Source: Lepidostoma basale
Lineage: Eukaryota; Arthropoda; Insecta; Trichoptera; Lepidostomatidae
DNA: 64,000 bases
Reading direction: 5' to 3'
Assembly (NCBI GenBank): GCA_022606425.2
Contig: JAHDVF020000208.1
Location: forward strand, 1,598,501-1,662,500
The position numbers and the translations under genes were made by a program. The stretch's first letter is position 1. Every line of letters begins with the position of its first letter. Shown here in pieces: positions 905 to 59,115 of this stretch. The notes under the pieces are model-generated. The model saw nothing but the letters and a program-made list of their open reading frames with translations, had not been told where the DNA came from and did no database searches.

Positions 905-1935
905 CATTGAAATATGTCATTTAATAAAAAAATTAATAAATCTTTTAAAAATGTGTATTTATTTAAAATCTACTAATATTTGTTTCTTCAACCGGTTTCG
1001 GTAGCTCGCTGCTATCTTCTGGTCAATCGTCAACTGAACTAACTAACCATCACGCCGTTTCCCGGAGGGGTAGGCAGAAAGGATGGATCGCCACATTTTT
1101 CTATCCTGACATAACTCCCGCGCCTCTTCTACATTCACACATCGTGACATACTCGCTCGTCGATTGTTCTTACTTCGAACATGGCTGCCTTTCAGTAATT
1201 GATTGATTTGGTCATTCCATGTTTTCCTTGGCCTTCCTCGACTTCTTTTTCCATTCACACTATCTGTTTATATATTTTTAACCATTCTTCCCTCATCCAT
1301 TCATTCCATATGTCCAAACCATCGTAGTAACCCTTTCTTGATTTTATTTATTACGCATTCATCCGCTTTACATTCCTTTCTTACTTCATCATTAGATATT
1401 CTATCATACATTGTTTTTCCGCACATCCTTCTTATTGACCTCATTTCTACGGCATTTATCCTACTTTCATCCTTCTTCTGCCAGCTTCACTTCCATACAT
1501 AAGAATCGGCACTAGAACTCCATTGTGCACTGTCATCTTTGCTTCAGTCGATATATTTCTATTTGCGGTATTGACTTTGAGTGCACCATTTATTTTGTTT
1601 CCAGCTCCGACCCTTCTTCCGATATCTTTCTTCATTTTTCCATCTCTTGTAAACATGCTTCCCAGGTAGACAAATTCGGTAACTTGCTCTAATTTCTCAC
1701 CGTTCGCACTTATGTCACAATCTGTCATACATTCTTCCTTTTCAAATACCATAACTTTAGACTTTGACACGTTCATCGCAAGGTCATACTTATTGCATTC
1801 TTCGTACATTCTTGACACTAGGACTTGTAGATCGTTCATGCTGTCAGCGATTGTTCTGCCGAAACCGGTCGAAGCCACAAACATTAGTGGATTTTAACTT
1901 AATATACATTTTAAAAAGATTATTTTTTTATTGAA
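905..1935. repeat. Foldback element FB-A (copy 1), split by a LINE
   Basis: Two inverted arms of the same family (about 905-1029 and 1850-1935) flank a LINE fragment. The left arm read on the minus strand (990-1021) has CAGAAGA, one base, a stem II-like segment, GAAA and ACCGGU, which is the order of parts in a hammerhead ribozyme. The right arm keeps only the 3' part of stem II, GAAA and ACCGGTC. The undivided copy at 5796-5938 shows that the arms normally sit next to each other, so the LINE lies in the former loop. Stem II is mismatched and the expected U4 is A, so this copy is probably inactive. Confidence 0.7.
1031..1850 (-). pseudogene. Lalpha LINE, 5'-truncated reverse-transcriptase C-terminus
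   Basis: This is the longest Lalpha copy in the window. On the minus strand it encodes a region just downstream of the RT catalytic box (ADSMNDLQVLVSRM, then NVSKSKVMVFEKEE, then YLGSMFTRDGKM). After a frame break it continues with MYDRISNDEVRKECKADE, then LLRWFGHME, RGRPRKTWNDQINQ, and the C-terminal CQDRKMWRSILSAYP. The 3' end is marked by GGTTAGTTAGTT (seen as AACTAACTAACC at 1036-1047). Stops and shifts break the frame, so it is a dead copy. The motif order is that of the C-terminal part of RTE-like LINE proteins; the exact clade is inferred. Confidence 0.8.
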
Positions 1936-1940
1936 GTTTT

Positions 1941-2750
1941 AAAACCGGGCCCTGCCGCCGTTTACTTCTGTTTTGGGATTTAAGTACGAAGTGTATGGAA
2001 CCTCGCAGCCGCCAGCTCCTCGCGGTACCTATAAATCTCCTCCGCTCCAGCTGCAGTGTTTCAAACCTTTTAATAACCATTCATCTCGGAGTGTAGTAAG
2101 CTGCTGGCCTGAGTGCTTTTAGACATTCGGTTTGACACTAATAAAACTTCTGAGAGGACATATTATATTTTAGGTATTGACAGAGCGCCGCGCCTCATTT
2201 GTGCGGTGAGAGGTCTCATAAATATCTGGATAATTGTGCCTGCGTTCGCATCGGGCGTTGCGTTGTTTACCGATTTCATTCCAGATACTCCGATACAAGA
2301 ACCACTGCTATGTCATTTAATGAAGAACCCACTTATGAACTGCTTCTCAGTGCAATGTCAATGATGTGACCAGATTATATGGAAGCGAATCCTGCGCGTG
2401 GAACTGGTACAAGAGTGAAGAAATTGAGATGATTGAATGTAGTTGGAAATATATTTTATAATACATCTTTGTGCCCTACCCATCTGAAGAAAACATGCGC
2501 CCTCCAATATGAATTATCATACCATGGTTTTCTTGGTTATGTTTTAATTTTATTCTTATTCAAATTTCTTGTATAAATCATTTTAAGCATTCATTCTTCG
2601 ACTTGGTTTTTTGCCGAACCACACTTGTGACCATTTATTTTCACATTGTTAGAGAACATAAGTTATTTTTATGATATTAAATAAATGAATAGGTAAGAAT
2701 CAGGGAGTGCATCAGAATGGATATTACAAGATTATTAAATTCTTTATTTT
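1941..2750. other. Gene-free stretch with a GC-richer patch
   Basis: The patch at about 1945-2065 is GC-richer than its surroundings. An 83-codon open frame at 2113-2364 has no recognisable motif and no splice context, and is not called a gene. Confidence 0.4.
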
Positions 2751-2753
2751 TTT

Positions 2754-2877
2754 GCATGACAAGATTTATGAATGTAGAGGAAGCGAGAGAAGTATGTCAG
2801 GACAGAACAGTGTGGCGTTCCATTCTTTCTGCCTACCCCTCCGGGGAGACGGTGTGATGGTTAGTTAGTTAGTTTTT
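2754..2877 (+). repeat. Lalpha LINE 3' end
   Basis: Encodes the family's C-terminus (FMNVEEAREVCQDR, then VWRSILSAYP), followed by the terminal GTGATGGTTAGTTAGTTAG. Only about 120 bp remain, so it is a strongly 5'-truncated insertion. Confidence 0.8.
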
Positions 2878-3002
2878 TTTTTTAATCTTCTATGACTGCA
2901 CACATTTCATTCTTTCATTTATAATTATATAATGTTTGTTTGGATTATGTTTTAATTTTTTGCAAAACTTTGAATTAAATTGATTGTTATTAATACTATT
3001 AT

Positions 3003-3170
3003 TATTTAACTTACCCATCACGCCGTCTCCCCAAAAGGGCAGGCAAAAACAATACATACTTCTTGCGATCCTCAACATTCATACGATTTTTCCGACTCTA
3101 AACGTTTTCGACATTTAATATTTTTACTGATTTGATTGTGCCACTCATTCCTCGGTCTTCTTCTACTTAT
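3003..3170 (-). repeat. Lalpha LINE 3' end, diverged
   Basis: The minus strand shows RRRPRNEWHNQIS near 3170 and ends at the family's CGGCGTGATGG motif near 3010. It is more diverged than the other copies. Confidence 0.65.
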
Positions 3171-4200
3171 TATTATTATTAAATATATTTATTATGATTG
3201 CTCAATTCTATTTTATAATCATATCTACAATTGTTTAATGCTTGATCGAAATATGCAATGTTATCAAACATATCTAGAAGATTGTAAAATAATGTAATAA
3301 TTAATATTCATGGATAAAATCAGCATAACCATAAGATTGAAGATAAATGCGCTAACAGTGGAAGAGCTAAAATGAGTATTAATAAGTTAATCTACCGATC
3401 TTGTTCAGATTATCCTCGGACATTAGTTGATCTCGTGTGAGCCATTCATTAGGGGGAGGCTGGGCTGAATGTCTTCATTATTTAAGTGGACCAAACCGAA
3501 CGGTTCACGCACTCCAAATTAAATCCATCCATCCGCAATACACAAATGTATCGTCCATGACACGACACCACACAAAAATGCCTTACCAACAAACAAAACA
3601 AATAACTCGTACATTGAAATGATACATATTTTTTGTAAAGTCTCCCCTGATTGTGTTCAGTTTGTACGATAGTTCTGGATGCAGGAAGCAGCAGTCATCT
3701 GCATCGGAGCGACACTTGACTGCTGTTTAAGTGTATCCTGCTTAAGGATTTTGACCAAAAGCTTCCCAAATTGGACGGCAATGTTTACACTAAGTACTGA
3801 CACTGTTGTCATGCAAAAAAGAAATGAACTCCGCGATGAAAGGCGCTTATTCACACAGCTTAAATGTTCGTTTTCACGTGCTTATAGCGATTAGGTGGAA
3901 AGGATTTGCGGTATTCCGTAATGAGATTATGGAATAAAATGTGCAGATTATTTGTATTGTAAAATTTTTTTTAAAAATATATATATTTACTTTACTCCAA
4001 TTTTGTCTCTGTAGAAAGAATTCCCAATATTATGAACAAGCATTTCGTTAATATATGATAGGATGTTTGATATTTTACTTCCACACATGCTAATCTACAA
4101 ATGTGCTTAGATTATCACGGCTGGTTGACTACCCCGAACGTGGAGCTACGATATGCAAAATGTCAGTCGGAGAGGATACCATGAGAGATGAACATATCAA
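3171..4200. other. Gene-free stretch
   Basis: The segment 3660-3895 is GC-richer and open on both strands, but no family motif is recognised. The remainder is AT-rich with nothing identifiable. Confidence 0.4.
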
Positions 4201-4204
4201 AGAC

Positions 4205-4716
4205 GACAACAACAAACCATCACGCCGTTTCCGCGCAGGGGTAGGCAGAAAGAATGGACCGCCACACTACTCTATCCTGACATACATCTCTAGCTTCCTC
4301 CACATTCATACAGCGAGTCAAACACCCACGTCGGTTTTTCCAGCTTTTGACAAGACCAACCTTTAAAATTTGATTAATTTGGTCATGCCATGTTTTCCTC
4401 GGTCTATCTCGACTCCGTACTCCATTTACATCGCTAACGTATACTTTTTTAACCATTATTTCTTCACCCATGCGCTCCATATGTCCGAACCAACGCAGCG
4501 ATCCTTTCATAATTTTGTTCATAATACCTTCTTTCGCTCTACATTCCTTTCTAATATCAGCATTTGAGATTCTGTCGTTCTACCACAACACGTCTTAGGG
4601 ACCTCATCTCTACCGCATTTACTCTGCTCTCATCTTTCTTCTGCCAGTTCCATGCTTCACTTCCATACATAAGGGTTGGGACCAGGACTCCATTGTGAAC
4701 GGCCATTTTCGCATGC
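4205..4716 (-). pseudogene. Lalpha LINE, 5'-truncated copy
   Basis: Minus-strand frames give AKMAVHNGVLVPTLMYGSEA, then a short frame break, then RKECRAKEGIMNKIMKGS, LRWFGHMERMGEE, RPRKTWHDQINQILK, and the terminal CQDRVVWRSILSAYP. It overlaps the 1031-1850 copy in content and ends with the same GTGATGG 3' motif. The TTAG tail is replaced by a TTG-rich run. Confidence 0.8.
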
Positions 4717-4924
4717 TTAACTACAATACGAGTGTAATTTCTGAGACAAACCGATACGAGTGTTATTCACCTACAGCTATATAACTCTTCAGTTTATTAA
4801 TATCTAATCATAGTTTTTAAAAATTCCGATATAATATAATATATTATATAACAATGTACAATACTATAAGAAAACAAAAAATATATTAAACATATACAGA
4901 AATTGCAACCACATAATTAAAACT

Positions 4925-5338: not shown

Positions 5339-5544
5339 CTACATTTTGCTTACTACAGTTTTAATAAGATATTTTATTTAAAAAAATCTAAAAACGCTTT
5401 TAAATAATAGATTCAAATCGATTTTTAATACGTATTTTTTAATTATAGTAACACGATTCGTTTTACTTTGATAGTATCAAGTATTATGTGATCGAAAAAA
5501 ATGGTGTTATTTGAAATGTCATTGTAGAAGTTCATTGTAAATAA

Positions 5545-5775
5545 TGTTTTTTTTCGATAATCAAATGATTTTACTGAAATCTCTTGATGGAAGTTCATTT
5601 TAAATAATAATTAAATAAAACGATGTTTTTTGTTCCACTTTTGCTTTATTTAGACGGCGACCAGTTTCGCCAGCGAGTCTGGCGAAACCGGTCGCTGTCT
5701 AAATAAAGACAAAAGTGGAAGTAGTTAAAAAACATCGTTTTATTTAATTATTATGTTTTTTTTCTTTGTGAAAAA
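5545..5775. repeat. Foldback element FB-B (copy 1)
   Basis: A near-perfect inverted repeat centred near 5680. Each arm runs from an AAACGATGTTTTT-like outer part through CCACTTTTG and TTTATTTAGAC to GCGACCGGTTTCGCCAG. On the plus strand the inner part has GCCAG-CGAGT-CUGGC, GAAA, CCGGU, C. The CUGANGA box is absent because the arms meet inside stem II. Three further copies are at 17.6, 19.4 and 59.0 kb. Confidence 0.8.
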
Positions 5776-5789
5776 TCTTTTTAAAATAT

Positions 5790-5990
5790 ATATATTTAAA
5801 ATCCACTGATGTTTGTGTCTTCGGCCGGTTTAGGCACCTCGCCGACATCTTCTGGTGGACCAGTACTTCTGGTGGCCAGAAGATGCCAGTGAGCTGCCGA
5901 AACCGATCGAAGACGCAATCATCAGTGGATTTTAACTAAATTATAAAGTTAAAAAAGTTTTTTGTTGAAAAATTTTTTTTTTCATTATTA
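5790..5990. repeat. Foldback element FB-A (copy 2, undivided)
   Basis: The arms start with AAAATCCACTGATG (about 5798) and end with CATCAGTGGATTTT (5935); weaker similarity extends outward. The plus-strand motif at 5877-5908 has CAGAAGA, U, a five-pair stem II with one mismatch (85-89 with 94-98), GAAA, then CCGAU and C. The left arm carries the same motif on the minus strand with CGAAG to CGGCC changes. It lies only a few bases right of an FB-B copy. Confidence 0.8.
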
Positions 5991-7044: not shown

Positions 7045-7313
7045 TTCTTTTGTTGGACGACCTTCGTGGCCGAGTGGTACATTGACTGCCACCCCGAAGG
7101 TTCTGGGTTCGATTCCCGGCGAAGTCAGTGTGATTGTCACACCGTCTTTGGTCTGGTGTAGAATTCACGTGACGATAAAATGGCGATAGATTAGCTACCT
7201 ATCACATCTCACGAGAATCATTATGATAGCTATATATATATATACGCTATATACCCTTTACATCGATTTGGCTCATGCTGTCATGATGTAAAGAGCGATT
7301 CAACAAAATAATA
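7045..7313 (+). repeat. tRNA-derived SINE, tail type 1
   Basis: The RNA polymerase III A box TGGCCGAGTGG (from 7068) and B box GGTTCGATTCC (from 7108) mark a tRNA-like head starting near 7057. A conserved body follows (TGATTGTCACACCGTCTTTG), then the type 1 tail ending GTAAAGAGCGATTCAACAAA and AAT repeats. ATAATATCACAAT occurs at 7032-7044 and again at 7314-7326, a 13-bp target-site duplication within FB-C. The head does not fold as a good tRNA, so it is a SINE rather than a tRNA gene. Confidence 0.85.
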
Positions 7314-7373
7314 ATAATATCACAATCAATGTTGGCATCATCAGGTGTTACAATAAACAGTTTATTGTAGCAC

Positions 7374-7409
7374 CTGATGATGCCAATATCGGTTGGCGAA
7401 ACAGCTGTC
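7374..7409 (+). ncRNA. Hammerhead-ribozyme-like motif (FB-C), core intact
   Basis: In order: CUGAUGA (7374-7380), one extra U, stem II GCCAA/UUGGC (7382-7386 with 7393-7397) closing a six-base loop, GAAA (7398-7401), then CAGCUGU and C (7409). All conserved hammerhead core bases are present. An extra base between A9 and stem II is known in a viroid hammerhead. Stem III with flanking A is the self-complementary ACAGCUGU, allowing two pairs with a four-base loop, or a dimer. Stem I can form from UUGU-AG-CAC and GCG-ACA, with an internal bulge and an A.C mismatch. The predicted cut follows C7409. Activity is inferred, not shown. Confidence 0.7.
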
Positions 7410-7488
7410 GCGACACTCTCAGTTAATAAAAATAAATTGTGATATTATAACAGTTTTAAATTTTAACAATAATAATAGTAGTTTGATC

Positions 7489-8083: not shown

Positions 8084-8200
8084 AACAATCAACGTCAGTC
8101 CCGGATGGACGGGGGACGGGCCTAGGAAGTGAATAAGCGAGGCTGACGAAAGGGCGCCGCTGCGCCCTATAACAGCCTCGGGAAGCGGCGGGGTACCCCT
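8084..8200 (+). repeat. GC-rich structured repeat, copy 1
   Basis: A compact GC-rich segment in AT-rich DNA with a second copy at 29310-29430. It can fold as two hairpins: GTCCC...GGGGAC at the start, then CGAGGCUG paired with CAGCCUCG enclosing AGGGCG paired with CGCCCU. The function is unknown; it could be part of a retroelement UTR or a structured RNA. Confidence 0.6.
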
Positions 8201-8204
8201 TTTT

Positions 8205-9175
8205 TTGTTGCTGATATCATCATGAAACTCCGTATCAAATATTTGATATTAGGAAAACTTGCGTTTTCTGGATGCAGGACATTTTAGGAGAAACAAGTCA
8301 CTCTCTTAAAACATAATATTTTTATAGTCAGAAAAATCGAGCGTGCATGTTATGATTCATCCACACAGAGAAACGCCAAGAGGTATGTCTGAATAGAAAA
8401 ATATAAAATAATAAATATTTCGTTAATTTTAGAAGCAGCATTCTTTTATTTGTGTTATTTGAAGAATCTGTAAGCTCATGGTTTTTTTTCTTGTCATATC
8501 TGTACCTACGCAATATCTATTGTGAAGGTTTAACCCTATTAATGGGAGGTTGAAAATGAGCTTAAAAAATATGAAGTTTAGACGCATAGCTATTTATGAA
8601 ATCACTTATATTGTAAAAAAAATGGATGCAAAGACATTTTTGTACCCCCCACCTACTAACATCATGAGACATTTTAATATTTTTTAACGCAATGCGTACT
8701 AGTATTCCTGTAGCGATCCTTATGTACTTATATAAGTATTGTATGAACCTGGTCAAAGAAATATAAAAGCGTAAGGTAGAAACATAATCCCTTAGACAAA
8801 TCTATGATAAATGTACGCATGATTGAATGTCAAACGTCGATATAAGATGCATGGCGAACGAGAGCGTTAATCGTAAAGAAAATAAGTAAATGATCAAGAT
8901 GAATTTAATCACAAATAAACAATTAACAAAGTAAAATAGTGTATTAACTTTACGTTAATTATGTGATAAAAGTTCGACTAAATCAATTAGCATTTGAATG
9001 TAAAATAACTTACTTGCATTTTACGCTATGAATGTAAAAAAATCGACTTACCACGATTGTTTTAAATGTTGATAATATTATGAAGTATATCAAGACAAAG
9101 AGAAAGATTGATAGTTGAGGCTAGTTTTGTTAAACTCCATTTTTCATTTATAATAGTAAACACGTTAGTTAAGTC
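8205..9175. other. Gene-free AT-rich stretch
   Basis: Only short AT-rich open frames without motifs. Nothing recognised. Confidence 0.45.
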
Positions 9176-9178
9176 AAA

Positions 9179-9290
9179 TGTTTTTACTTGGATTTAATTT
9201 ATATAAATAGTGACAAATTTGTTTCGCCTTGCGAGGGGATTCTCAAACTCCCTGAGTTATAATTTATATAAATTAAATCCAAGTAAAACC
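9179..9290. repeat. Foldback element FB-E
   Basis: The arms TTTTACTTGGATTTAATTT (9182-9200) and AAATTAAATCCAAGTAAAA (about 9270-9288) are inverted copies. On the minus strand 9212-9246 reads UUGAGAA, U, a mismatched stem II, GAAA, then CAAAUUUGU and C. Stem III including the flanking A is the ten-base palindrome ACAAATTTGT. The core has U3 with A8 in place of C3 with G8. Only one copy is seen. Confidence 0.6.
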
Positions 9291-9294
9291 ATTA

Positions 9295-10390
9295 AACAAT
9301 ATTGTTTACTATTATACAATAAAAAATAAAAGTTAAAACACAAAACATTCTAAGCGTTCAATTACCGAGCACATGGTTTTCATACCTTCCAAATTGGGTA
9401 ACCCGTTCTAGAGAGGCAAATTAATTCAATGATCGATATTGTATTAATTAAATCACCCTCAAAGAGATACAGAATCCTTTATTTCACGACAGGCTTTAAT
9501 TCTTTCCTGGGGTGTAAAATTCTTTTATTTTTCCGTTTCAGTCTAGCGCTTCCGAAATATTTCCACCGCCCGCCACTGTCACTCGGGGGGACCGTCCCGA
9601 TATACAGAGGATGTTTTCCATTAGAGTTTTTCTCGAAGAAACGGTTAAAAAGAAAACGTTTTTTGGGTCATCAAGCGGAATCAATCAATCTTTCAAACAT
9701 GGCTATACAGGCAAAGATCTCCTCGACAAAGGCAAATGAATTTATCTTCAGGGCTGTCTATTTTTTTAGTTAATGCATTCTAGTTTATACTCGTACATTG
9801 AAAACACCACGTATAATTTTGGTGTAAACCCATAAGTATTTAATTTAAAAAGAGTGAGAATTAATTCAGTGCCAATAATTTGAAATATTACGCATTAACA
9901 TGTATCGTGCCATGCATATTTTAAAAAAAGACCCAATGTGCCACCGTACAAATTTTCTTGTATATAATGTATTCGTATATAGGAATGATAAGAGGACCTT
10001 GAGAACCTTTACTTTCATTCAATCGTTGGCAGTGACATATGACAGCCACGGCGTAATACGTATTAAATACATATTTCATTGTATATGTACATATATTGTT
10101 GTAGTGATAATTATCTATTGTTGCTTGAACAATGTATAAAACAGTATGTTAAATATTAACAACTGAAGAAAACCTAATAAGAATGTCGAGCTTCGCCTCG
10201 CTAGTGTATGATCTACTGTTTTGTAATACACTTCCAAATATTTTGTTATTATTTAAAGATAAAACTTCTAGAACGTTTTCCCAATAAATAAATACGTAGT
10301 TATTGTAATTCTTTCATTTTATCTATCTCTTTACAAATTGATTTGACTTCCACCCTGATATCAATATTAAACATTTTATCAATCGAAGTA
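9295..10390. other. Gene-free stretch
   Basis: A 114-codon open frame at 9429-9773 has no recognisable domain and includes GC-richer DNA (9540-9720) of unknown nature. No splice or repeat context supports a gene. Confidence 0.4.
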
Positions 10391-12525: not shown

Positions 12526-12527
12526 CT

Positions 12528-12776
12528 CAGTGGCGGTACTCCTATAGAAGCTCAGAAGCCCAGCTTGCGTAAGAAATTTTGAATCAAAACCTCTTGTGGC
12601 TTACAAAGGTTCAGCTCTTGTGGCTATTCCTCTTACGTCTGATGGGAACATTGCTGGAAGGTGATTTGGTGGGTTGTTGATTTATGCAGGGGCATGAATA
12701 CTTAGATTTGGGGGGTTTGATTCAAAAAAATTTACGCAAGCCGGGTTTCTGGGCTTCTATGGAAGTACCACCACTG
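12528..12776 (+). mobile_element. hAT-type MITE, copy 1
   Basis: Terminal inverted repeats begin CAGTGGCGGTACT and end AGTACCACCACTG; they continue inward through AGAAGCCCAGAAGCCCAGC-like sequence. The 249-bp unit has no open frame. The flanks CTGTAGCT and CTATACCA agree at five of eight positions, compatible with a decayed 8-bp duplication as hAT elements make. A second copy is at 60.4 kb. Confidence 0.75.
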
Positions 12777-12929: not shown

Positions 12930-13215
12930 TAAAATATGTGTAACAATCAACAACATCAATCAACAACATCAATATGTGTAACTGTTGAATAAAAATTTTT
13001 GTTTGTGTATCACAATTTATTTCTTTTTTATTTCTCGACACAGCTGTTTCGTCAATCTATTTTGACATCATCAGGTGTTACAATAATTTATCAACTGTTA
13101 AAATTCATGTCAAAACATAGGTTGAAACAGCTGTCGCGAAAAACATAAAGTATATAAATTGTGATACATTAACAAAGTTTCGGCAAAAACAGTGGACTAT
13201 TCAAAATATTTTATC
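12930..13215. repeat. Foldback element FB-C (copy 2)
   Basis: GTATCACAATTTAT near 13014 is inverted as ATAAATTGTGATAC ending near 13168. The left arm holds an intact hammerhead-like motif on the minus strand. The right arm has GTTGAAACAGCTGTC, lacking two stem II bases. The outer sequence ends GTTTCGGCAAAAACAGTGG, the family's outer motif. Confidence 0.8.
13037..13074 (-). ncRNA. Hammerhead-ribozyme-like motif (FB-C), core intact
   Basis: On the minus strand: CUGAUGA (13074-13068), U, stem II GUCAA/UUGAC, GAAA (13050-13047), then CAGCUGUGUC. Compared with 7374-7409 the second stem II pair has changed from C-G to U-A, keeping the helix. A GU dinucleotide is added before the cleavage C. Stem I is weak. 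Core bases are complete. Confidence 0.6.
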
Positions 13216-13337: not shown

Positions 13338-13551
13338 ATTATTCTTATTATTGATTTGTTGAATCGCTCTTTACATCATTACAGCGTGAGCCAAATCGAT
13401 ATAAAGGGTATATTCATATTGATTTACGTTACATGTGAATTTTACACCAGACCAAAGACAGTGTGACAATCACACTGCCACTGCCGGGAATCGAACCCGG
13501 AACCTTCGGTGTGACAGTCAAATTACTTACCACTCGGTCAGGAAGGTTGTC
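13338..13551 (-). repeat. tRNA-derived SINE, tail type 1
   Basis: Minus-strand head with TGACCGAGTGGTAAGTAA (degenerate A box) and GGTTCGATTCC (B box), then the shared body and the type 1 tail (GTAAAGAGCGATTCAACAAA) ending in AAT-rich sequence. Confidence 0.8.
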
Positions 13552-14375
13552 ACAAACCTGGAAAAAATATATATTTTATTAACCTTTAATTGAACCGAAA
13601 CAAAATATTTTCCACTTGATATTATTCATGTTATTATAAACATGTTAGTTAACTATTAACAACAAAATTATTCATACATAAAATTAACATACATGTCTAC
13701 AAAATGTAAAGAATAAATCTTCAATAAAAGTGCGTTAATCGATATATTTTGGCGCATATTTCATTTCATTTATTTTAATAAAAATTACAAACATTACAGA
13801 CATATTTCCAGATCGTTTGTAATTACATTATGAGAATTCAAAAGAGAAGTATAAAAATAAAATAAAAATAAGCTTAAGAATTAGACATAATCATAACATT
13901 GATATTGCATCCCTGAAGCAACTTATACGACGTATTTCGTGTCACGAAATACGTCGACCTCCGAGGCGATATTTTAATGCCTATCCATTGAAAGCAATAT
14001 TTTTCAACTTACGGGTTAAAATATTCCATAAGATGTAGTAAATTATTATTGTACAACATAATGTAACTTCTAAACTTCGCCCTTTCTTCGTTGTTATTGT
14101 TGTTATGGCACAGTTTGTTCTTTGCATAAACCCCCATATACAAACTTGTTTCTTTGATATGATGTAGAATCGTTCCCTTTCGGGTAGTGCAAGTATGTAA
14201 TTTTTGAACGCCGAATATCCTGAACAAATAACGATATTCGGTGGCGCCAGGCGTAGGTGTTAAAGTAGGACACGGTTATCTTCTCACCGTTGTATTTACA
14301 CCCATTTTATTCATTCCGGTGCACTTTTGTGTATTCTAGTAATCGCGGGATGTTTGTCTGAACACAAAAAAACAA
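13552..14375. other. Gene-free stretch with a perfect palindrome
   Basis: AT-rich, no gene. It contains the palindrome at 13928-13956, listed separately. Confidence 0.45.
13928..13956. repeat. 29-bp perfect palindrome
   Basis: CGACGTATTTCGTG, a single T, then its exact reverse complement CACGAAATACGTCG. The 14-bp arms have no mismatch. No similar sequence is seen elsewhere in the window. Confidence 0.85.
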
Positions 14376-16965: not shown

Positions 16966-17600
16966 ATATTATGATAAGCATTCCAAGTATACGTTTTTTG
17001 ACACATTGGGGTCCCGCAACTCGAATGAACATCCACAAAGACAATCAATTTAAAGAGTCGACAGAAATATTAAAGAGGAAGGATATTAATGGTCCTGGCG
17101 TGTTATGAATCAAGGGGAGTGGAAGCGTGCAAGGTTATCGGAGCTCTGTTCTTTACACTGCCATACAATAACGCTATCTAACGATTAAAAATAGTCCCGG
17201 CGAAGCACTCCACCCACAATCTTGCCTTGTTGTCCAAGTTAAGTGATTCACTTTATTTATTTCCCACTATCAAACATTTGTTTTAAACGCGTCCTGATAA
17301 GTGCATTTCTGAAATAGATTTTATACCACCCTTTGGTTAAGTGGGGGTCATTTCGGTCTTTAGGAATGCATTTAAGATGGATCTGAATTTTTACGTTTCA
17401 TCCTTTATTTTCAGATAGACATCTGTTTACATAAAAAGTTTTTAATTAAAAATATACAATACATTCTAGATATGTCCATTGTCCATGTTATTTTAGGACT
17501 CATTGAATCTATTAAATATTCAGGAATAATTCGATATTAATTTGTTAAAATGATTTTATTAAAAATATTAGCAGTTTTTAAAAATTATTAAATAAATCGA
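16966..17600. other. Gene-free stretch with a GC-richer island
   Basis: The segment 16990-17240 is GC-richer than its surroundings and has no open frame or repeat similarity. The rest is AT-rich. Confidence 0.35.
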
Positions 17601-17601
17601 T

Positions 17602-17800
17602 TTAATCAAATGAATTTACTGAAATCTCTTGATGGATGTTTTTTCAATAATAATAAAATAAAACAGATTTTTTTAAGTACTGTTGCCACTTTTGTCTTTA
17701 TTTCGACAGTGACCGGCTTTGAAAGACTAGTCTTTCAATGCCAGTGAGTGCCTGGCAAAACCGGTCACGATCGAAATAATCGAGATACAATTAATCCTTA
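17602..17800. repeat. Foldback element FB-B (copy 2)
   Basis: The left outer part TTACTGAAATCTCTTGATGG is shared with the 5.5 kb copy. The inner part has inverted GTGACCGG and CCGGTCAC around a TTTGAAAGACTAGTCTTTCAA palindrome-like centre. The right arm shows UGCCAGUGAGUGCCUGGC, AAAA, CCGGUC; the GAAA box is changed. Confidence 0.75.
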
Positions 17801-18965: not shown

Positions 18966-19205
18966 GGTATTGAATTAATTAATACGAAAGAAAACGTCAG
19001 TTTTCTAGAAGTTTTATTATATTTTATGGGAATGACATGTTTCGCCCTTCTAAGGCATTATCCATTTTTTTAAAAAGACATTTCATAATGCCTTAGAAGG
19101 GCAAAATATATCATTCCCGTAAAACATAATAAAACTTCTAAAAAACTGACGTTTTCATTCATATAAATATAGAGTTTTCATAATTGTTCAAGAAACAATA
19201 AATCT
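18966..19205. repeat. Foldback element FB-D (two arms)
   Basis: The left arm ends TTTCGCCCTTCTAAGGCATTATC and the right arm starts ATAATGCCTTAGAAGGGC. The outer right end is TTGTTCAAGAAACAATAAA. Stem II is GCCUU-AGA-AGGGC. The right arm has lost GAAA (now AAAAU); the left arm keeps GAAACAUGUC on the minus strand. A 20-base spacer separates the arms. Confidence 0.85.
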
Positions 19206-19359: not shown

Positions 19360-19512
19360 AAAATTATTCTTAGTTTTTTATATCGTATCAACAACTAGTT
19401 TCAATTTAAATAATAATTAAATGAAACGATATTTTTTAACTACTTCCACTTTTGTCTTTAATTCGACAGCGACCGGCTCGCTGGCATCGACAGACTATTG
19501 ACACTATTGCAA
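19360..19512. repeat. FB-B single arm
   Basis: TTTAAATAATAATTAAATGA, then ACGATATTTTTTAACTAC, TTCCACTTTTGTC, and GACAGCGACCGGCTCGCTGG. It lacks the GAAA and one stem II strand. On the minus strand the box reads CUGUCGA. Confidence 0.7.
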
Positions 19513-19870
19513 ACTGAGTCCTTAATATACAGATCAGGGGTATTAAACATGATTCCATACAAAAATAATCTTCAAATATAAATGTAAATTTTACTGAATT
19601 TAAATATTGGTATTACAGGTATTCAAGAAGATTCATATTCAATTCAATGTATTTTGATTCAATACAATGTATTTAATCAAATTTATGTTAATACTCACAT
19701 TTAAAGTTTAATTCTTTATTACAATTTTACATACAATTTTGAATGATGGTCTGCTGATATGACAATACGATAATAGATTTTTTTAATTACACCATTATTA
19801 TTTTCTTCTTCCCATAATTATAATGAATTTCTACAATTATTTCAGCGACAAACATATTTTTTTATAAATA
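19513..19870. other. Gene-free AT-rich stretch
   Basis: TATTCAAGAAGATTCATATTC and ATTCAATGTATTTTGATTCA show loose local repetition. No gene. Confidence 0.4.
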
Positions 19871-20690: not shown

Positions 20691-20694
20691 AAAC

Positions 20695-20882
20695 ACAGCT
20701 ATTATACGCATCACAATTTATTTGTATGTGATTGTCGCGACAACTGTTTCGCCAACCTATGTTGACAAATGGGCTTTCGCCACAATCTCATAAAAATAAA
20801 ATGTGATACGTATATTAACAGTGTTTAAAATTTAAACATTAAATAATGTAGAAGCATCATAGTTTTTCGGCCAAAACAATGG
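20695..20882. repeat. Foldback element FB-C (copy 3)
   Basis: ATCACAATTTATTTG left and ATAAAATGTGAT right are inverted. The minus-strand motif at 20739-20770 has stem II GUCAA/UUGGC (one G.U), GAAA, CAGUUGUC. The CUGAUGA box is lost. The outer end is TTTTTCGGCCAAAACAATGG. Confidence 0.75.
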
Positions 20883-42271: not shown

Positions 42272-42360
42272 TGAAGAAGGAACCTGGTCGTGTCCAGGCT
42301 TGAACCCATGCCCCCTGGATCAAGAGCCAAGCGTTCTATCCCCTAGACCACCACCCGGTT
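42272..42360 (-). repeat. tRNA-like sequence, probably a second SINE family
   Basis: The minus strand has the A box TGGTCTAGGGGAT and B box GGGTTCAAGCC at tRNA-like spacing. A CUU triplet could sit in the anticodon loop. The T stem does not pair well and there is no clean acceptor stem, so a functional tRNA is unlikely. Confidence 0.5.
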
Positions 42361-42592
42361 TTGAATAAATAGAGAAGCACTTTGTATTATCACAACACAT
42401 TATTTGTTTATTTATAGACATGTTTCGGTCCATATTCGCTCCTTCTTCTATACACAAATTTTAGCAATTATAATATAATAGTTAAAAATTATGCACAGAA
42501 TAAGGACCAAATAAGGACCGAAACATGTCTGGAAATAAATAAATAAAGTGTGACAATACAAAGTTCTTATCTCTTTATTCAAACTTTCCTGA
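42355..42592. repeat. Foldback element related to FB-H (copy 3)
   Basis: TTTGAATAAATAGAGAAGCA left is the inverse of AGTTCTTATCTCTTTATTCA right. Both arms have GGACCGAAACATGTC facing outward. The box is UAGAAGA in the left arm and unrecognisable in the right. A tRNA-like sequence abuts the left end. Confidence 0.75.
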
Positions 42593-44017: not shown

Positions 44018-44230
44018 TATAACTAATACGAATGAAAACGTATCTATTCAAGAAGTTTTTTTTAAATTTATATGAATGACATGTTTCGCCTGTTCAAGTA
44101 CTTTGATAATACGAGTATCTTGGACAGGCAAAACGTGTCATTCACATAAATTATTATGAAACTTCTATCATAGAAAATAGACGTTTTCATTCATTATTTA
44201 TTGTTTCTTAAACAATGATGTAAAACTCAA
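44018..44230. repeat. Foldback element FB-D (two arms)
   Basis: GAATGACATGTTTCGCCTGT and its inverse ACAGGCAAAACGTGTCATTC. The left arm keeps GAAACAUGUC on the minus strand; the right has AAAACGUGUC. The outer right end is TTGTTTCTTAAACAATGATG. Confidence 0.85.
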
Positions 44231-44231: not shown

Positions 44232-44462
44232 ATTAAATTATTAATATGTATAAAAAACGATAGTTTTCAAGTAGTTTTATTACAATATTTATATAATATA
44301 TGACATGTTTCGCCCTTCGAAGGCATTATCAAATGTCACATTTGATAATGCCTTAGAAGGGCGAAACATGTCATACATAAATATTGTAATAAAACTCCTT
44401 GAAAACTCTCGTTTTTTCATACATATTAATAGTTTTCATTCATATTAATTATTATGAAATTA
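44232..44462. repeat. Foldback element FB-D (best-preserved)
   Basis: The arms are nearly perfect inverses centred at about 44337. The motif at 44342-44372 (plus) is UUGAUAA, U, GCCUU-AGA-AGGGC, GAAA, CAUGU, C; the mirror copy is at 44302-44332 (minus). Apart from U3 and A8 replacing C3 and G8, the hammerhead core is complete in both. It lies directly beside another FB-D element. Confidence 0.88.
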
Positions 44463-46524: not shown

Positions 46525-46749
46525 GACGACCTTCGTAGCACAGTGGCAACAACTATGACTGCCACGCTAACTGTCTTCGGTCTGGTGTAAAATTCACTTG
46601 ACAATAAAATTTCGATACATCAGCTACCTATCACATGTCATGAGAATCAATAAAATCGCCATACCCTTTACATCGATGTAAAGTTCAGGCTCGCACTGTG
46701 TTGATGTAAAGAGCTATTCAAAAAAATTAAAATTAAAATAAATTAAAAA
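46525..46749 (+). repeat. tRNA-derived SINE, tail type 1, B box deleted
   Basis: Begins CGACCTTCGTAGCACAGTGG, then jumps from TGACTGCCACGC directly to TGTCTTCGGTCTGGTGTAAA, so the B-box segment is missing. The type 1 tail ends GTAAAGAGCTATTCAAAAAA with AAT-rich sequence. Confidence 0.8.
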
Positions 46750-49370
46750 GTGCTCTGCACGCTGAGCTGTTGTAACAAACTGAGCAATTTGCTTTTAATA
46801 GATATATAATATAATGAGCAGATAGCTTCCCCGACCATTCTTTTATTTAAATCCTGCTTGTGGCGTGATAACTTTTTTGAGAGATTTCATTGAATTTCAA
46901 GTTGTTGTTTTTTTTATCAAATTTGCCATCAAATAGATGAACTGAAGAAAAATATATTATACAAACCAGTCAAAAGATAAACCTTTACGCCGATAAATAA
47001 AAATATTTCTTTAATTTATTCTTACGCTTTATACAGTCATCAGTTATGGTCGAAATATAAATACGTCCTTTCAGGCAATGCTATTCCTTTTTATTATGTG
47101 TGCATGTATGTGCGTGTGTTCTTTTTTAGAATTTTACAAAATTGCAAAAATATTGTATTATATATTTTACAGAGATGGAATATTCCTATTATATTTGTCA
47201 GTAAGTCGTAAAATGAAAAACTCCATAAACAAATCAATAAAGTAACTTTAACTAGTTTCCATCCCTTTCCACAACAGATAAAACGAGTGATTCATCTAGG
47301 CTCCGAATATCATCCCCAAGTATAGGGGGAGCAGAGACGCGAATCAGTCGACCGTACTTAGGTTGGTACATCAAGTACATATTATTAGAAGTAGTAATCG
47401 TTCAGTGGCGGACCTCCTTTTATTTGATTTTTTTTTAAATAATTATTCTAATTTTGAATCAATATAATATATTTTATCACTTTCGCAGTGACATCTGTGA
47501 ATCGATAGTAGAAACTACGTAAAAATGTTCAGTTGGTATCTACTAAATTACAAATTGTTTGATTGAGTCCATTTGAATGTTTGTTAATTTCACTCTTTTT
47601 GGTATTTACTCATTACACAAGATTTAAATCGGATAGAATCTAATTTGAAATATTAAAATGTAGCTTTAAAAGTTAGTTTTTAATCTTTTTTTTTCAAAGT
47701 AAATACTAAGGCGAAAACGATAAGCTTTAGTTTGTCAAACCAGGACACAAGCCGGTTCTTTCTTCGTGATAATGATGTATGTTGCTAGCCTCTCAGTTTC
47801 GATAGTGTATCATAAATTCTAATAGTATTGATTCAAATCCTTTTTGTCGGGCTTAAAAAAAATTAAAACATATTTAGTATATTGTATTATATATTATAAA
47901 TTAAAAAAGTATTGTATATTTATATAATATGACAATAAAATTATGTTAAATTAATTATTCACAAAAACAGAAAAATATGTAATATTATTCATCCAAACAG
48001 TTTTAATATGTATTTATTAATTAAATAACCGTTTTTCAATTGCATTGACAGGCTTGTTCATAGTTTCTATGCAGATCTTCTAATTCTTTGACTTCGAAGA
48101 TTCGGTCGACTTTATATATAATTCCAGGGGCACGTGGTGTTTTTTTAGTTACACAAAACGCAGGGTCGCCTCCCTTACCCTCAATGCCTCCTTGCTTCTA
48201 TATAAAACTGAAATACGAGTATACCATATATTTCTTTCATGAAGACAAACCTAACGATTTGCCTATAGAGATATATATAGGAGTAAGAACATACCACGCC
48301 ACTCCTCTGCAAGTACGTACCACGATACTACACAATATAAAGTACCAAGTGCGGGTATCTCCGGAAGAAGGGAGCCGCAGTGGATACGAGACAGGCCACG
48401 GGATTGGCTGCTGTTTTGTGTGCTCTGCAATAAAAGGCAGAATACGATGCGATTTTCCCTTTTAATCGCTTGCTCCTTGAATGGCGTAGGATATTTTATA
48501 TGCCTCCATGAAAAGATACGATTTTAATTAAAAAACATTAATATTTCTAAAAAATTTCTGATAATTTCCAATATCTAGAAGTATCTTTACTTCCGAGTAT
48601 GCTTCTATAATTCTACAATTTAAATCTACTTTGCAGTGTACACGCCTTTAATTGAAATTTCCCTGTAACAAAATATATTAATGGAAAACTCCAGATTTTT
48701 ATAGAAAGGGGTTTCCGCTCGATATTTGAGACTCTGTGGCCCATATGAGAGTATAATACTGTCTAATGCCGTTCTCTGGACCATTGCAGGTTATAGGACA
48801 GTCAGAACAAGTTGACATACGCAACCATCTAGGATTGGTCACGCTAGGCTGGTCCGCTGGGTGTGGAAATAGAAAAAAAGAGATAAGAGGCATACCTAGA
48901 ACCACCTGAATATAAAGCCTGCAATGCTAACGTGGTGAGCTTCTTCGAGCAAATCTTCAAGCCCTATACACTCCGGGGGTGTGGCAAAGCAAGTAGAGAC
49001 CCTGATAATTGTTTAATTTTTAATGTGTCTTAATATTTTTGTAGTGGCAACACTGTTGTATGTCTAAAAATTCGTTTATTGGGGCATGAGATATATATTA
49101 ATGACGTAATTTCTTCAAAAATCGTTAAAAAAAAACGAATTCCACTACTGAAACAATGTTGTATTGTTATAACATTTTTGATTTCATTATTTCGTTGCAG
49201 ATTTCATTTAAGCTTTTTAAATTAACTATTGTAGATGTTTTTAATAAAATGTCGAAACTAAATTACAAATATTCCTTGGTTTAATGTTAATCCTATTGAC
49301 AAACATCTAAACAGAAAAGTTATATAATGTATTCTCGATTTTTTTATGAATTAAAACAATCTTTTTTCCA
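46750..49370. other. Gene-free stretch of about 2.6 kb
   Basis: Mostly AT-rich. GC-richer segments at 47280-47360, 48100-48470 (125-codon open frame, no motif) and 48690-49010 remain unidentified; the last could be a decayed retroelement end. No host exon can be supported. Confidence 0.4.
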
Positions 49371-49375
49371 CTTTT

Positions 49376-49575
49376 GAATTTATTTTTCTCTTCGTGCTTC
49401 GAAGACTTTACTCCATCATCGGGAGAACGATAAACGGTAGAAGTTTATATCGTTCTCCCGATGATGAAGGTGTGAAGCCTTCAAACATGTAAAAAAAATT
49501 AAGTTAGAAGTGAAAAATATAGTTAATTTTGTTATTTGAAATTTTATGGTAGAAGTTCAATGTTAACAATGAAAA
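49376..49575. repeat. Foldback element FB-G (copy 2)
   Basis: ATCATCGGGAGAACGATA is inverted as TATCGTTCTCCCGATGAT. The plus-strand motif at 49458-49490 reads CCGAUGA, U, GAAGG-UGUGAAG-CCUUC, then AAA (the G of GAAA is missing), CAUGU. The left arm has UCUUC, GAA on the minus strand. Confidence 0.75.
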
Positions 49576-51490: not shown

Positions 51491-52005
51491 TGAAATAATT
51501 AGAATCCATGGTCAATCCTGGACATCATTACTTTTAGCTTTCGTTCTGATTACCATCAATATTTTTTTAATTCATTAAACTAGGTACATTCAGTCACATG
51601 ACTTTTACACTGTTTTATCCATCTGGGTGTGTAAATAATAGTATTTTATATGATGAAGACTCCCTAAGCCGTCACAATTGAAAATTTAAAATTATGCAAT
51701 AATATATTTCATGTTTGTGAGCAAATTTTTTTTAAGTTAGAACCTTTCGCTTCGTTAACCGCAAAAACATCAACTGTTTCATTCTCAAATTGTAAAAGTT
51801 TCGCAGATAATTTCGCACAGTTTATTTTGGTCATCAAAAGTGAGGGATGAGAAATTTTCCAGGAAATTATACGGAATATAAAATATTATTTCACATTATT
51901 TCTTTAGATCTTGTTACTAGCTATTTGCGCATTTAATACTTACTGTTTTTCTTATTTCAAAATCAATCTTCCAGCAAAAACAAAAACATTATCATAAATG
52001 GGGTT
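51491..52005. other. Gene-free AT-rich stretch
   Basis: Nothing recognised. Confidence 0.4.
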
Positions 52006-52007
52006 AA

Positions 52008-52450
52008 CTAACTAACTAACTAACCATCACGCCGTTTCCTCGCAGGGGTAAGCAGGGAGGATGGACCGCCATACCGTTCTGTCCTGACATACCTCTCTAG
52101 GTTTCTCCACATTCATACATCGTAACATGCACACTCGTTGATTTTTTCGACTTCCAATATGGCCACCTTTTAGTATTTGATTAATTTGGTCCATGCTTTT
52201 CTTGGTCTCCCACGGCTTCTCTTTCCACCACAGTGCTTTTATACAACATTTTAATCATTCTTCTCTCGTCCATTCGTTCCGTATGTCCAAACCATTTCAG
52301 GGATCCTTTTTTAATTTTAATAATGATACAATCACATGCCTAACATCTCTTCCTTATTTCGTCGTTCGGTATTCTATCATAAATCGTTTTCCCGCACATT
52401 ATTTTCAGTGATCTGATTTCTACGGAATTTATCCTACTTTCTTTATAACT
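52008..52450 (-). pseudogene. Lalpha LINE, 5'-truncated copy
   Basis: The plus strand starts TTAACTAACTAACTAACTAA (the tail). The minus-strand coding remnants include SRINSVEIRSLKIMCGKTIY, then RIPNDEIRKRC, LKWFGHTERMDERRMIKML, and the CQDRTVWRSILPAYP end. Confidence 0.8.
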
Positions 52451-52487: not shown

Positions 52488-52882
52488 AGACTATCATTTT
52501 CATTATATTTTATGTAAAAGACATATTTCACCTGTCTAATTTCATTCGTATTAAAAACTTTTTATTTAGTTTAAATCATTGTTCAAGAAACAATAAATAC
52601 TATATTTTTCATTTGATATATTCACATATTCTTGAAATAAACTAGTACTTTTTATTTTTCTTGAACTGTAGTGTGTGTTGCATATTAAATTAATAATACA
52701 AATGAAAACGTCTATTTTATAGAAATTTTATAATAATTTATAAGAATGAATTTATCAAATGTGGAGGCATTAACAAAATGGACATTTGATAATGCCTTAG
52801 AGATGCGGAACATGTCATTTCCAGAATCTAAAATTAAACATTTAGAAAACAGACGTTTTCATTCGTATAAATAAAACTAATG
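52488..52882. repeat. FB-D fragments and a foldback copy
   Basis: 52488-52615 holds a broken arm (TTTATGTAAAAGACATATTT, CACCTGTCTAA, then TTGTTCAAGAAACAATAAA). 52685-52882 is a two-armed copy; its right arm has UUGAUAA, U, GCCUUAGAGAUGC, GGAA, CAUGUC. Confidence 0.75.
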
Positions 52883-57066: not shown

Positions 57067-57410
57067 TTTGGAGTTCAAAAAATGTTATTTACGCTTCATC
57101 GAAATGACATACTCAAAATTAAAGCCCGATGATGACGCTTTAACATGAAGGTAGTTACAATATAGTCCATTGCGATTTAATACTAGTGACGCCCTCTTTT
57201 GTAAGTTCTTTAAAACTTACTTACACACCTGATCCTTTTTATTAATTTAAATGGGTATTACCCAACGTAATCATGACAGTTTTAAATTTCATCTAAATAT
57301 TTTAAAGAGTGCGTAACCCAATTAAATAATAGTTAAGTTAATTTTTTTTATTTGAAATCTGTTAACACATTCATATATAAAATATTCACGATTGCACATT
57401 TAACCCAATT
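57067..57410. other. Gene-free AT-rich stretch
   Basis: Nothing recognised. Confidence 0.4.
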
Positions 57411-57411
57411 A

Positions 57412-57716
57412 ATGAACTTGAAGAACTAATTTACCAGGAAACAGTAGTGAGATTCTGTAAGTCTCAACGCCTACGGTGGGCTGGCCATGTGGAAAGAATG
57501 CCAGAGGGTAGAACACCACAAATTATATCCAGATGGGTGTCTCGCGAAAAGAGACCAATAGGCAGACCGAGGAAAAGATAAGCGAATTGCGTGGAACAAG
57601 ATTGGGAGAAAATGGAAGGAGCTGGGGAATGGAGAGAGATGGCCAGAGACAGAAGTCAGTGGAGAACCGTGTGAAAGAGGCCAAGTCCCACACCGGGATG
57701 TAGCGCCGAGAAATGA
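57412..57716 (+). pseudogene. LINE C-terminal remnant (unassigned family)
   Basis: Plus strand: QETVVRFCKSQRLRWAGHVE, RMPEGRTPQII, RPIGRPRKR, a frame break, VEQDWEKMEGAGEWREMARD, RSQWRTV, then a stop and a PGCSAEK end. Standard LINE ORF tail motifs. Confidence 0.75.
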
Positions 57717-57725
57717 ACGATGAAT

Positions 57726-58990
57726 GAAATGACATTTAACCCAATCCTTAGAGATGGAGTCATAGATATAGAGATGGACACTGAAGGTGTCATGGTCAAA
57801 TTTGCATCAGCTGGATATTCTAACTACGACCTATAACGATTATCTCTGGTGCTTTAATTTCTATTTGTTTCTATGAGTCAACACTTACTTCTCACTCGAA
57901 TTCGTAGGTACTATTCACATCTCACCTTTGCTCGTTTGATCATACATAAATACAGGGCACAATCTTACAGAGTTATACTTGTTATTGTACTTTAATACTT
58001 CACAATGTGAAATTTTATTTAATTAATTCGATTGGCTCCTAACATTTCACAGTTCAAATGACTTCTTTGGAATGATCTTGTTATGTTCCATTTTCAAACA
58101 CCATAACTATCACCGAGCTTTCCCGTTTCCGTTAAAACCCCCTACCTCTATCCCGGTCCACTATCCGGATGCAGACTAGGAAAGTACTTGCCTACCTACT
58201 CCCCGTGGAGTGAAAAATACGATCTGCGTTCCTACCCCTAAAGTCCGGCTAAACGCCTTCTAAATCTTATAAAGTACCTACAAAATCATCAAAAGGGACG
58301 CTCGCAGAATAATAAGAAAAGTAGAAGGCATATTACTAATATAGTATTTTTTACTTAGTGTTGCTATTTTACAGCTACGGTTCAGTGAAAGGGTCAAACA
58401 TTTTCTGTACCGCACTGCCAGGGAAGCCAGTTTCCGATAGTTACTCGCCAGAAATTTTAGTCATGGGTGTTACGAGAAAAACCTTCAGAGGTTTCAGGTA
58501 CCTACCTTCATACTAAATCTTGGTACCTACGTAATCCCAAACATTTGTGTAATTCTGAACAAACCTGTATAAGTACGGGATTATACTTATAAATGAACAA
58601 TGAACATCTCCATATAAAGTTTTTAATATTAATATATGAATATAGTTTTTAATTTATTATAATATTAATATTATAGAAGCTTAATTATATTCTTCTTCTT
58701 CGTTGTGTTAATGGCAAGCTCGTTTTCTAAGGGTGTTCCTAAAAGGGCCAAGTCTCTCCTCTTCTCTAGCCACTGTGTTGGAAGGTTTGGGCGACTTTTT
58801 TTCGTTATACTTATGTTATAGTAACATCATACGTGGAGGCATCTTTCTTGCGCTCTTTATTATATTGTTTCGCCTTGCTACGGCATATTAAAGTTGTTAT
58901 TATTCCCTAAAAGGGTAAGTTATAATAATATTTTTTATAATTATATTCAAAATTTTAAGCCGATTTACGGTGTTTTTGTTTAAATGGTGT
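57726..58990. other. Gene-free stretch
   Basis: A 33-bp piece at 58861-58893 (TTGTTTCGCCTTGCTACGGC) is an isolated FB-D fragment. The rest is not recognised. Confidence 0.4.
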
Positions 58991-58994
58991 TATT

Positions 58995-59115
58995 GCCTCG
59001 TTAAAACATGTTTTAAATAATAATTAAATGCAACGATATTTTATTTTTATTTTACTACTTCCACTTGTTGACTTTATTTTGACAGCGACCGGTTTCGCCA
59101 GGGTATTAAATATAA
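58995..59115. repeat. FB-B single arm
   Basis: TTTTAAATAATAATTAAATG, then CTACTTCCACTTGTTGAC and GACAGCGACCGGTTTCGCCA. On the minus strand this gives UGGC, GAAA, CCGGU, C. Confidence 0.75.

Follow-up and report, generated by a model that had tools for sequence, protein, structure and literature searches.

The 64-kb window analyzed here is the 64,000-nucleotide stretch of Lepidostoma basale contig JAHDVF020000208.1 (G000:C790:1598501-1662500 in our coordinates), and it carries, from about 920 to 59102, short repeats that mostly stand head to head. These foldbacks are almost certainly derivatives of Penelope-like elements (PLEs), and it is very probable that they are leader-only insertions of several PLE families, devoid of the open reading frame (ORF) and arranged head to head. 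For one family, F1, the link to an element encoding reverse transcriptase (RT) and GIY-YIG domains, two discrete classes of 3' ends and the pairing of a short with a tailed arm are directly observed; target duplications, one-sided tails and a covarying fold are observed for the set as a whole. The repeats are read as head-to-head copies of a Penelope leader because the one-sided tail in F1 is most likely the start of the ORF.

Head-to-head repeats with an ordered motif

Most counts come from 264 contiguous kb, i.e., the window and the 200 kb directly upstream, a single region of a 768.8-Mb assembly; the family names F1 to F10 were coined in this analysis. Inverted-repeat units, defined by blastn self-comparison, number 76 in the 264 kb, or about one of any kind per 3.5 kb. 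The window contains 20 of them, and 26 self-palindromic matches are listed there, some of them weak (E up to 3.5). By similarity, the window arms form seven clusters, or eight if the merged CTGTCGA and CAGAAGA groups are split. The sequence-only reading had described about nine families of short hammerhead-like repeats; their abundance and predominantly head-to-head arrangement held, while the number nine found no one-to-one counterpart.

The arms share a motif in which a CTGANGA-like box, one extra base, a hairpin, GAAAC, 2-4 nt and GTC follow in this order. A descriptor made up of the box with no more than one mismatch, up to two extra bases, a hairpin of four or more pairs and GAAAC gave 33 matches in the 264 kb, and ten second-order Markov shuffles of the same sequence served as the null. 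With one extra base, 32 matches were found (11 with an exact box, 21 with one mismatch) versus a shuffle mean of 1.3, whereas the zero-base and two-base spacings gave 0 matches versus 1.4 expected and 1 versus 1.5, respectively. A strict scan for an exact CTGANGA with the stem immediately after it found one match in the window, the same as in shuffles (0-2). A wide descriptor without the C after GAAA showed no total excess in the window (11 matches versus 2-11 in 20 shuffles); eight of these 11 have one extra base, against an average of about 2.3 in the shuffles.

A covariance model was trained on 26 arms (set A1), all from outside the window; they were taken from 57 descriptor rows, of which the 6 window rows were excluded deliberately and the 25 others were near-copies or doubtful. 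In the window, unseen by the model, 23 matches at E<=1 were obtained, 12 of them at E<=0.025, the best being 7362-7415 (E 7e-10). The upstream 200 kb gave 55 matches at E<=1, many of them training sequences. Altogether, 56 of the 78 matches fall inside inverted units, which cover 21.5 of the 264 kb (8%). The ordered motif is borne out by the excess at one-base spacing, but the earlier statement that it occurs in each repeat is too strong: unit 5604-5754 has no box, the right arm of 31477-31628 has no motif, and 9139-9327, 32759-32945, 37573-37714, 44019-44201 and 52690-52874 have no model match at E<=1.

Link to Penelope ORFs

The repeats had been taken for solo or non-autonomous derivatives of several Penelope-like families, an interpretation that we uphold on the ORF links of F1 and F4 and on the insertion signatures described below. 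It had also been remarked that no Penelope RT/GIY-YIG ORF is visible; accordingly, a profile of 71 proteins (segments of at least 25 amino acids, E<=0.01) detects no Penelope ORF piece in the 264 kb, window included. A GIY-YIG search of the whole genome returned 62 matches, several as back-to-back pairs. One locus, L041, contains a 758-amino-acid open frame (2006-4279) with RVT_1 (E 1.4e-13) and GIY-YIG (6.6e-5) domains, both over the cut-offs; among its listed homologues (120 of 1343) is a protein from the moth Phthorimaea that bears the name reverse transcriptase. The ORF is flanked by inverted repeats at 1595-2050 and 4309-4764, 99% identical over that part, and both carry the F1 motif, pointing outward. 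Window positions 5557-5754 align to L041 4676-4808, and unit 5604-5754 corresponds to the last part of the L041 repeat.

This association recurs: a model match (E<=0.01, same strand, at most 1.1 kb after the ORF) is present at 15 of 18 Penelope ORF loci, the loci without one at this threshold being L030, L035 (E 0.011) and L039. The chance rate, estimated from the 47 matches that the 264 kb yield at E<=0.01, is about 0.1 per 1.1 kb and strand. Besides one 74% piece, the ORFs form two groups, 89-98% and 40-50% identical to L041. The first group goes with F1. F4, the family of window position 36235, accompanies L034, L036 and L038 of the second group, its motif lying 127-264 nt after their GIY-YIG ORFs. 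A single F2 match lies in L025, 805 nt beyond an ORF piece. Loci L021 (G000:C102) and L023 (G000:C729) hold GIY-YIG frames of about 600 amino acids among long, dense ORFs, and these frames are probably UvrC of bacterial associates in the assembly.

Target duplications and one-sided tails

Exact direct repeats were sought at the outer ends of the 76 inverted units, allowing up to 60 nt of one-sided extra sequence, and expected numbers were derived from 2000 random placements. Duplications of at least 12 bp occur at 10 units (0.11 expected), of at least 10 bp at 14 (0.46 expected) and of at least 9 bp at 19 (1.7 expected); the lengths in this last group vary from 9 to 16 bp. In all 19, one arm is longer than the other by 32-53 nt.

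The F1 family places this asymmetry on the element itself. Among 59 aligned F1 pieces, 51 end at L041 4761-4775 (27) or 4804-4810 (24); the latter class is bounded by the query end, and in four insertions the duplication lies within 6 nt of that end. Of 20 head-to-head F1 pairs, 16 combine one short and one long end, L041 itself included. The short end falls at the start codon (L041 4767-4769), and the extra stretch of the long end reads ATGAACTTCCATCAAGAG..., MNFHQEISVKSFDY, encoding MNFHQE.... Since this peptide resembles the N-termini of homologous proteins (MEFHQVPTTTS, MDFHQVK, MFHQVPC, MNFRKVTP), the tail is most likely the start of the ORF. The ORF of L041 itself is cut off upstream, and the tail is not contained in it. 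Downstream of the motif, F1 and another copy (L041:4721-4780 and L041:6099-6160) also have GTGGAA..TTCCAY stretches able to pair, with the second half at a start codon; this may be a stem-loop where reverse transcription starts.

A fold arranged like a type I hammerhead

The motif has the layout of a type I hammerhead, with the box and its extra base, stem II, GAAAC, GUC and stem I in the corresponding places, and cleavage is a prediction from this layout. A CUGANGA/GAAA/NUH-like core is present with one extra base after A9 (position numbers such as A6, A9 and C17 follow the usual hammerhead scheme). Stem III is reduced to C..G with 2-4 nt between, a proper stem III being absent. Stem I played no part in motif selection and therefore provides an independent test. 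In set A2, the 19 arms left when 7 arms are taken from A1, stem I pairs in 68.4% of cells; shuffles give 42.1%, with 0 of 500 as high, and slid controls 29.5-43.2%. The 7 omitted arms belong to the GAAACAGCTGTC/CAGCTGTC family, in which two extra bases shift the stem I register; with them included, pairing is 54.6%. Examples of the stem are UACAC/GUGUA in F4 and CAGU/GCUG in F1. Stem II is paired at 94.6%, which is no proof of the fold because the hairpin was a selection criterion. Likewise, G5, G8, A9, G12, A13 and A14 are invariant in A2, partly through selection, since the descriptor demanded GAAAC and tolerated no more than a single mismatch in the box. At the core positions, F1 has U at A6 and the CAGAAGA group has A at U4, and in F1, F2, F4 and F5 the extra U turns A9-U-G into ATG.

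The Rfam hammerhead models, named beforehand as the search that could overturn the ribozyme claim, went against it: they gave no match in the window up to E=10 and none at 14 loci with good copies, in a search that had no positive control. RF00008 likewise found nothing in the L. basale genome and in 0 of 14 control genomes. This null was not taken as decisive because a positive control did not exist, and we retain the hammerhead-like reading because stem I, unused in selection, covaries and RF00008 was silent in the controls as well.

Junctions between the arms

The junction count covers the 30 units that are self-palindromic and match the model at E<=0.05; units with spaced arms, 27 of the 76, lie outside it, and some of their junctions are far upstream. 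In 26 of the 30, the symmetry center is no more than 26 nt before or 18 nt after the box start, a clustering for which no null was computed, and the other four centers lie 54, 90, 103 and 208 nt before it. Within F1, six arms of four insertions begin at A4662 or C4663, 30 nt after TATATAA, which looks like a transcript start. A general identification of the inner junction with the transcript start was dropped, as a TATA box at the right distance is found in F1 only. Copies of F2, F4 and F6 often share TTTAG about 20 nt upstream of the box; TTTAG or TTCAG stands about 20-30 nt upstream of it in several copies (L005, L012, L024, L034, L036, L037, L038) and resembles a 3' splice site or a promoter element.

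In the F1 insertion L003:8288-8456, which has a 12-bp duplication, both arms start directly after the predicted cut, at position 4701, to within the 2 nt of their overlap. A cluster of junctions at the ribozyme cut site was considered and dropped, since the cases amount to this single F1 insertion, with both its arms, and a lone F3 arm. At the F1 junctions, the arms overlap by 2-5 nt or are separated by filler of 6-13 nt, in one case of 41 nt.

Proposed insertion route and alternatives

In the route that we propose, each arm would begin close to the 5' border of a minimal hammerhead-like fold, take in the leader and end at an internal start site of reverse transcription, located at the ORF start codon or about 14 codons after it. 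The fold would be of type I, with stem I, one extra base between A9 and stem II, and a stem III remnant of 2-4 nt. The GIY-YIG enzyme would nick both target strands, and reverse transcription would start internally on each, one strand using the proximal site and the other the distal one; on this view, the rule of one short and one long end reflects a different choice of start site on each strand. Because no more than about 100-150 nt separate the 5' copy of the start site from the RNA 5' end, the enzyme would run off the leader before any ORF is copied; with the start site nearest the RNA 5' end in use, only the leader would be copied. The two short cDNAs would then be joined head to head by microhomology or filler bases, and tandem transcripts produced by read-through would be the source of full-length copies like L041. 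We regard this particular route, with its joining of two strands, as an even proposition. More tentatively, and as possible rather than probable, most Penelope insertions here may be abortive leader copies made by run-off on both nicked strands, with junctions that form a fossil record of template RNA 5' ends, namely transcript starts (A4662 in F1) and rarely in vivo ribozyme cleavage (L003:8288-8456).

Several observations weigh against this interpretation or parts of it. Only F1 and F4 are firmly tied to ORFs; F2, F3, F6, F8 and others are presumed PLEs by shared architecture. No duplication of at least 9 bp is seen at 57 of the 76 inverted units, which is how decayed or non-PLE units would appear, and the 36 units without a model match at E<=1 need not all be PLEs, six of them still carrying such duplications. 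Four of the 20 F1 pairs (L020:249/554, L032:761/813, L007:3823, L013:1597) do not follow the one-short, one-long rule clearly, L013:1597 at face value having two short ends. The transcript-start reading draws on F1, and F2, F4 and F6 copies have no TATA box at that place. Unequal arms and filler bases are compatible with several joining routes, the U in place of A6 in F1 may cost activity, and Rfam recognizes no hammerhead in the window or at the 14 loci.

The closest competitor accepts the PLE identity and proposes self-priming, in which a single cDNA snaps back on a hairpin close to its 3' terminus and then copies itself, the snap-back hairpin possibly being stem II of the hammerhead. Unit 5604-5754, joined exactly in the stem II hairpin, fits such self-priming, and PMC3846280 argues for it from palindromes at the junctions of rotifer Penelope elements. 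However, unequal arm starts with overlaps of 2-4 nt (L011:7019, L003:5294) and fillers of 6-13 nt (L013:2404, L008:4205, L012:7574) fit the joining of two cDNAs, and the one-sided tail requires two 3' ends per insertion, which a single self-copied cDNA does not simply give; we consider self-priming unlikely, although a serious contender. A separate question is whether the conserved fold of these PLE derivatives is a translation-start or packaging structure instead of an active ribozyme. The ATG created by the extra U in four families and the U at core position 6 in F1 would suit this, as would the finding that Poseidon ribozyme mutants still inserted and that cleavage needed the protein (PMC11167929). 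The invariant core positions of A2, partly a product of selection, the covariation of stem I and the two arms of L003:8288-8456, whose starts lie no more than 2 nt from the predicted cleavage site, speak for a ribozyme, leaving the non-ribozyme function doubtful but with appreciable weight.

Two readings outside the PLEs were rejected as very improbable. Dense short inverted-repeat units with target duplications would be expected of foldback transposons or of DNA transposons resembling miniature inverted-repeat transposable elements (MITEs), with chance hairpins at their ends; yet the duplications of at least 9 bp range from 9 to 16 bp, the arms differ by a tail that in F1 encodes a PLE N-terminus, and the F1 arm flanks an RT and GIY-YIG ORF. 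Hardly more plausible are metazoan retrozymes, non-autonomous retroelements that bear type I hammerheads and spread via circular RNA. They would account for a type I hammerhead-like motif in short ORF-less repeats, and a coral in PMC7229834 has canonical retrozyme hammerheads plus minimal PLE-like ones. Retrozymes are, however, described as direct tandem repeats of about 150-450 bp (the same source), whereas the units here stand head to head, the window contains no direct tandem hammerhead arrays, and Tandem Repeats Finder gives no unit above 28 bp in it.

Relation to known systems

Together with the Adineta vaga elements, Penelope of Drosophila virilis is among the closest systems. The endonuclease-containing Penelope elements of A. 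vaga (PMC3846280) share with the present families an RT and GIY-YIG ORF, inverted head-to-head pseudo long terminal repeats (pLTRs), an optional one-arm tail (31 bp) extending into the ORF, target duplications (8-10 bp) and solo pLTRs. Unlike them, the inverted pairs described here usually contain neither the ORF nor the repeat's upstream portion; the 30 self-palindromic units span 73-612 nt (most 100-260 nt), and for the most part the arms are joined where the hammerhead-like fold has its 5' border. The Poseidon element PAc of Anolis (PMC11167929) has a comparable minimal hammerhead with stems I and II, and its reverse transcription begins inside the RNA near the ORF start, the tail being set by two start sites. 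The cut reported for PAc is 26 bp after the start codon, close to the 27 nt that separate C17 from the A of A9-U-G in F1. PAc has been tested biochemically, including a protein-assisted hammerhead, and has tandem pLTRs, whereas the families here are known from sequence.

Hammerheads of PLEs, reported in all available PLE sequences (PMC6155905), are of type I, lack helix III and lie within the terminal repeats, as here; the families described here have, in addition, a single extra base ahead of stem II. Metazoan retrozymes (PMC7229834) are likewise short non-autonomous elements with type I hammerheads, but they form direct tandem repeats with canonical helix interactions and circular RNAs, in contrast to the inverted families here. 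PLE hammerheads, inverted pLTRs, tails, duplications and solo pLTRs are thus already in print (PMC3846280, PMC6155905, PMC11167929). In the literature searched, which scarcely covers subscription journals, no description was found of abundant leader-only foldbacks, of junctions at the hammerhead 5' border or of the suggested insertion route, and the sections of PMC11167929 covered contain no mention of leader-only foldbacks.

The foldbacks bear on the mode of PLE insertion, the origin of inverted repeats with a one-sided tail and the role of the hammerhead. If about one unit per 3.5 kb held across the 769-Mb genome, thousands of natural insertion products would be available, directly showing where reverse transcription starts, where the template ends and how two strands are joined. 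Junction clusters that hold genome-wide would test internal two-strand initiation versus self-priming and show whether ribozyme-cleaved RNA ever serves as a template.

Foldbacks of the window

Family F1 includes a complete ORF-less foldback at 5544-5764, with 12-bp target duplications (5544-5555 and 5753-5764), a tail on the left arm only and arms equal to the terminal repeat of the full element L041; the model matches 5659-5683 (-, E 0.59) and 5669-5693 (+, E 0.042). The junction of its unit 5604-5754 falls in the stem II hairpin (TTTC GCCAG CGAGT CTGGC GAAA), and the box is therefore absent. Further F1 copies are a foldback at 17600-17779 (motif 17720-17774, +, E 0.29), a longer arm at 19400-19659 (-) that extends further upstream in the element (L041 4497-4771), and a single arm at 59011-59102 (-), 5' truncated at the 3' strand of stem II. 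Family F2 (CTGATGA t GCCAAT..GTTGGC GAAACAGCTGTC) forms foldbacks at 7316-7415 (motif 7362-7415, +; the left arm has no 3' half of the motif), 12998-13176 (motif 13033-13086, -), 20671-20846 (motif remnant 20741-20767, -, E 0.95) and 31104-31278 (motif 31169-31222, +, E 0.01).

The F3 foldback at 21424-21853 has long arms (21432-21805, 91%), motifs at 21489-21539 (-) and 21696-21746 (+), and a right arm with a 40-nt tail containing ATGGCGAATATAGAAGAA; the repeat TACAGAAA at 21424-21431 and 21846-21853, being 8 bp, is not significant alone. A second foldback, assigned to F3 by eye (31466-31683), gives no model match and has the 15-bp target duplication AATATTAACTGATTT at both ends and a 40-nt tail on the right arm, which begins after the motif, at or beside the predicted ribozyme cleavage position. 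F4 (CTGATCA t GGAGG tca CCTCC GAAACATTGTCGTG) is represented at 35933-36355, with motifs at 36183-36232 (-, E 0.032) and 36223-36274 (+, E 0.22) and an interruption by another dispersed repeat, and F5 (CCGATGA t GAAGGTGT..) at 49364-49517, with motifs at 49383-49434 (-) and 49446-49499 (+).

The CAGAAGA group comprises an F7 foldback at 5771-5963 (motif 5876-5909, +, E 0.026) and, by eye, an arm pair at 920-1935 (920-1004 and 1856-1935; motif 982-1033, -, E 0.054) with a LINE-like (long interspersed nuclear element) repeat inserted between the arms. Foldbacks of F8 (GATAATGCCTTAG type) are located at 18978-19168 (motif 19026-19076, -), 44235-44435 (motifs 44294-44344, -, and 44330-44380, +) and, with no model match, at 32759-32945 and 44019-44201; a single F8 arm lies at 29432-29480 (+, E 0.54). 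A separate family forms the foldback 42360-42583, with motifs at 42409-42462 (-) and 42484-42537 (+), and the single motif ATGAAGA t GGAGACTG caa CGATCTCC GAAACGTCGGTC at 29049-29111 (-) was found by the descriptor, with no model match. Weak Rfam matches (MIR2630, rox1, mir-5014, mir-31_2, mir-1677, RAGATH-7 and others), all under gathering scores, overlap foldbacks, among them 42357-42587, 49412-49468, 31488-31617, 7323-7397 and 44296-44378; sub-cut-off matches to microRNA families, rox1 or RAGATH-7 thus call for caution in annotation.

Other repeats

A dispersed family with ends CACGCCGT and GATGGTTAGTTAGTTAG, LINE-like by a guess from its sequence, is found at 1031-1417, 2753-2878, 4202-4588, 29520-29956, 33491-33878, 36024-36163 and 52005-52390, with copies sitting within the foldbacks 920-1935 and 35933-36355. 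Repeats with tRNA-Gly-like heads at 32576-32647 and 37127-37198 (-) have relatives at 7083-7234, 13383-13557 and 46570-46663; the neighboring part is common and repeated in the window, and they look like copies of a tRNA-derived short interspersed nuclear element (SINE). The 86% identical copies at 8091-8182 and 29312-29403 form a nested hairpin (GAGGCTG ... CAGCCTC around a G+C-rich stem) with no hammerhead order. Finally, 12527-12718 and 60458-60649 constitute a 192-nt inverted pair, 90% complementary and 47.7 kb apart, each member of which overlaps a local inverted pair (12528-12776 and 60408-60639).

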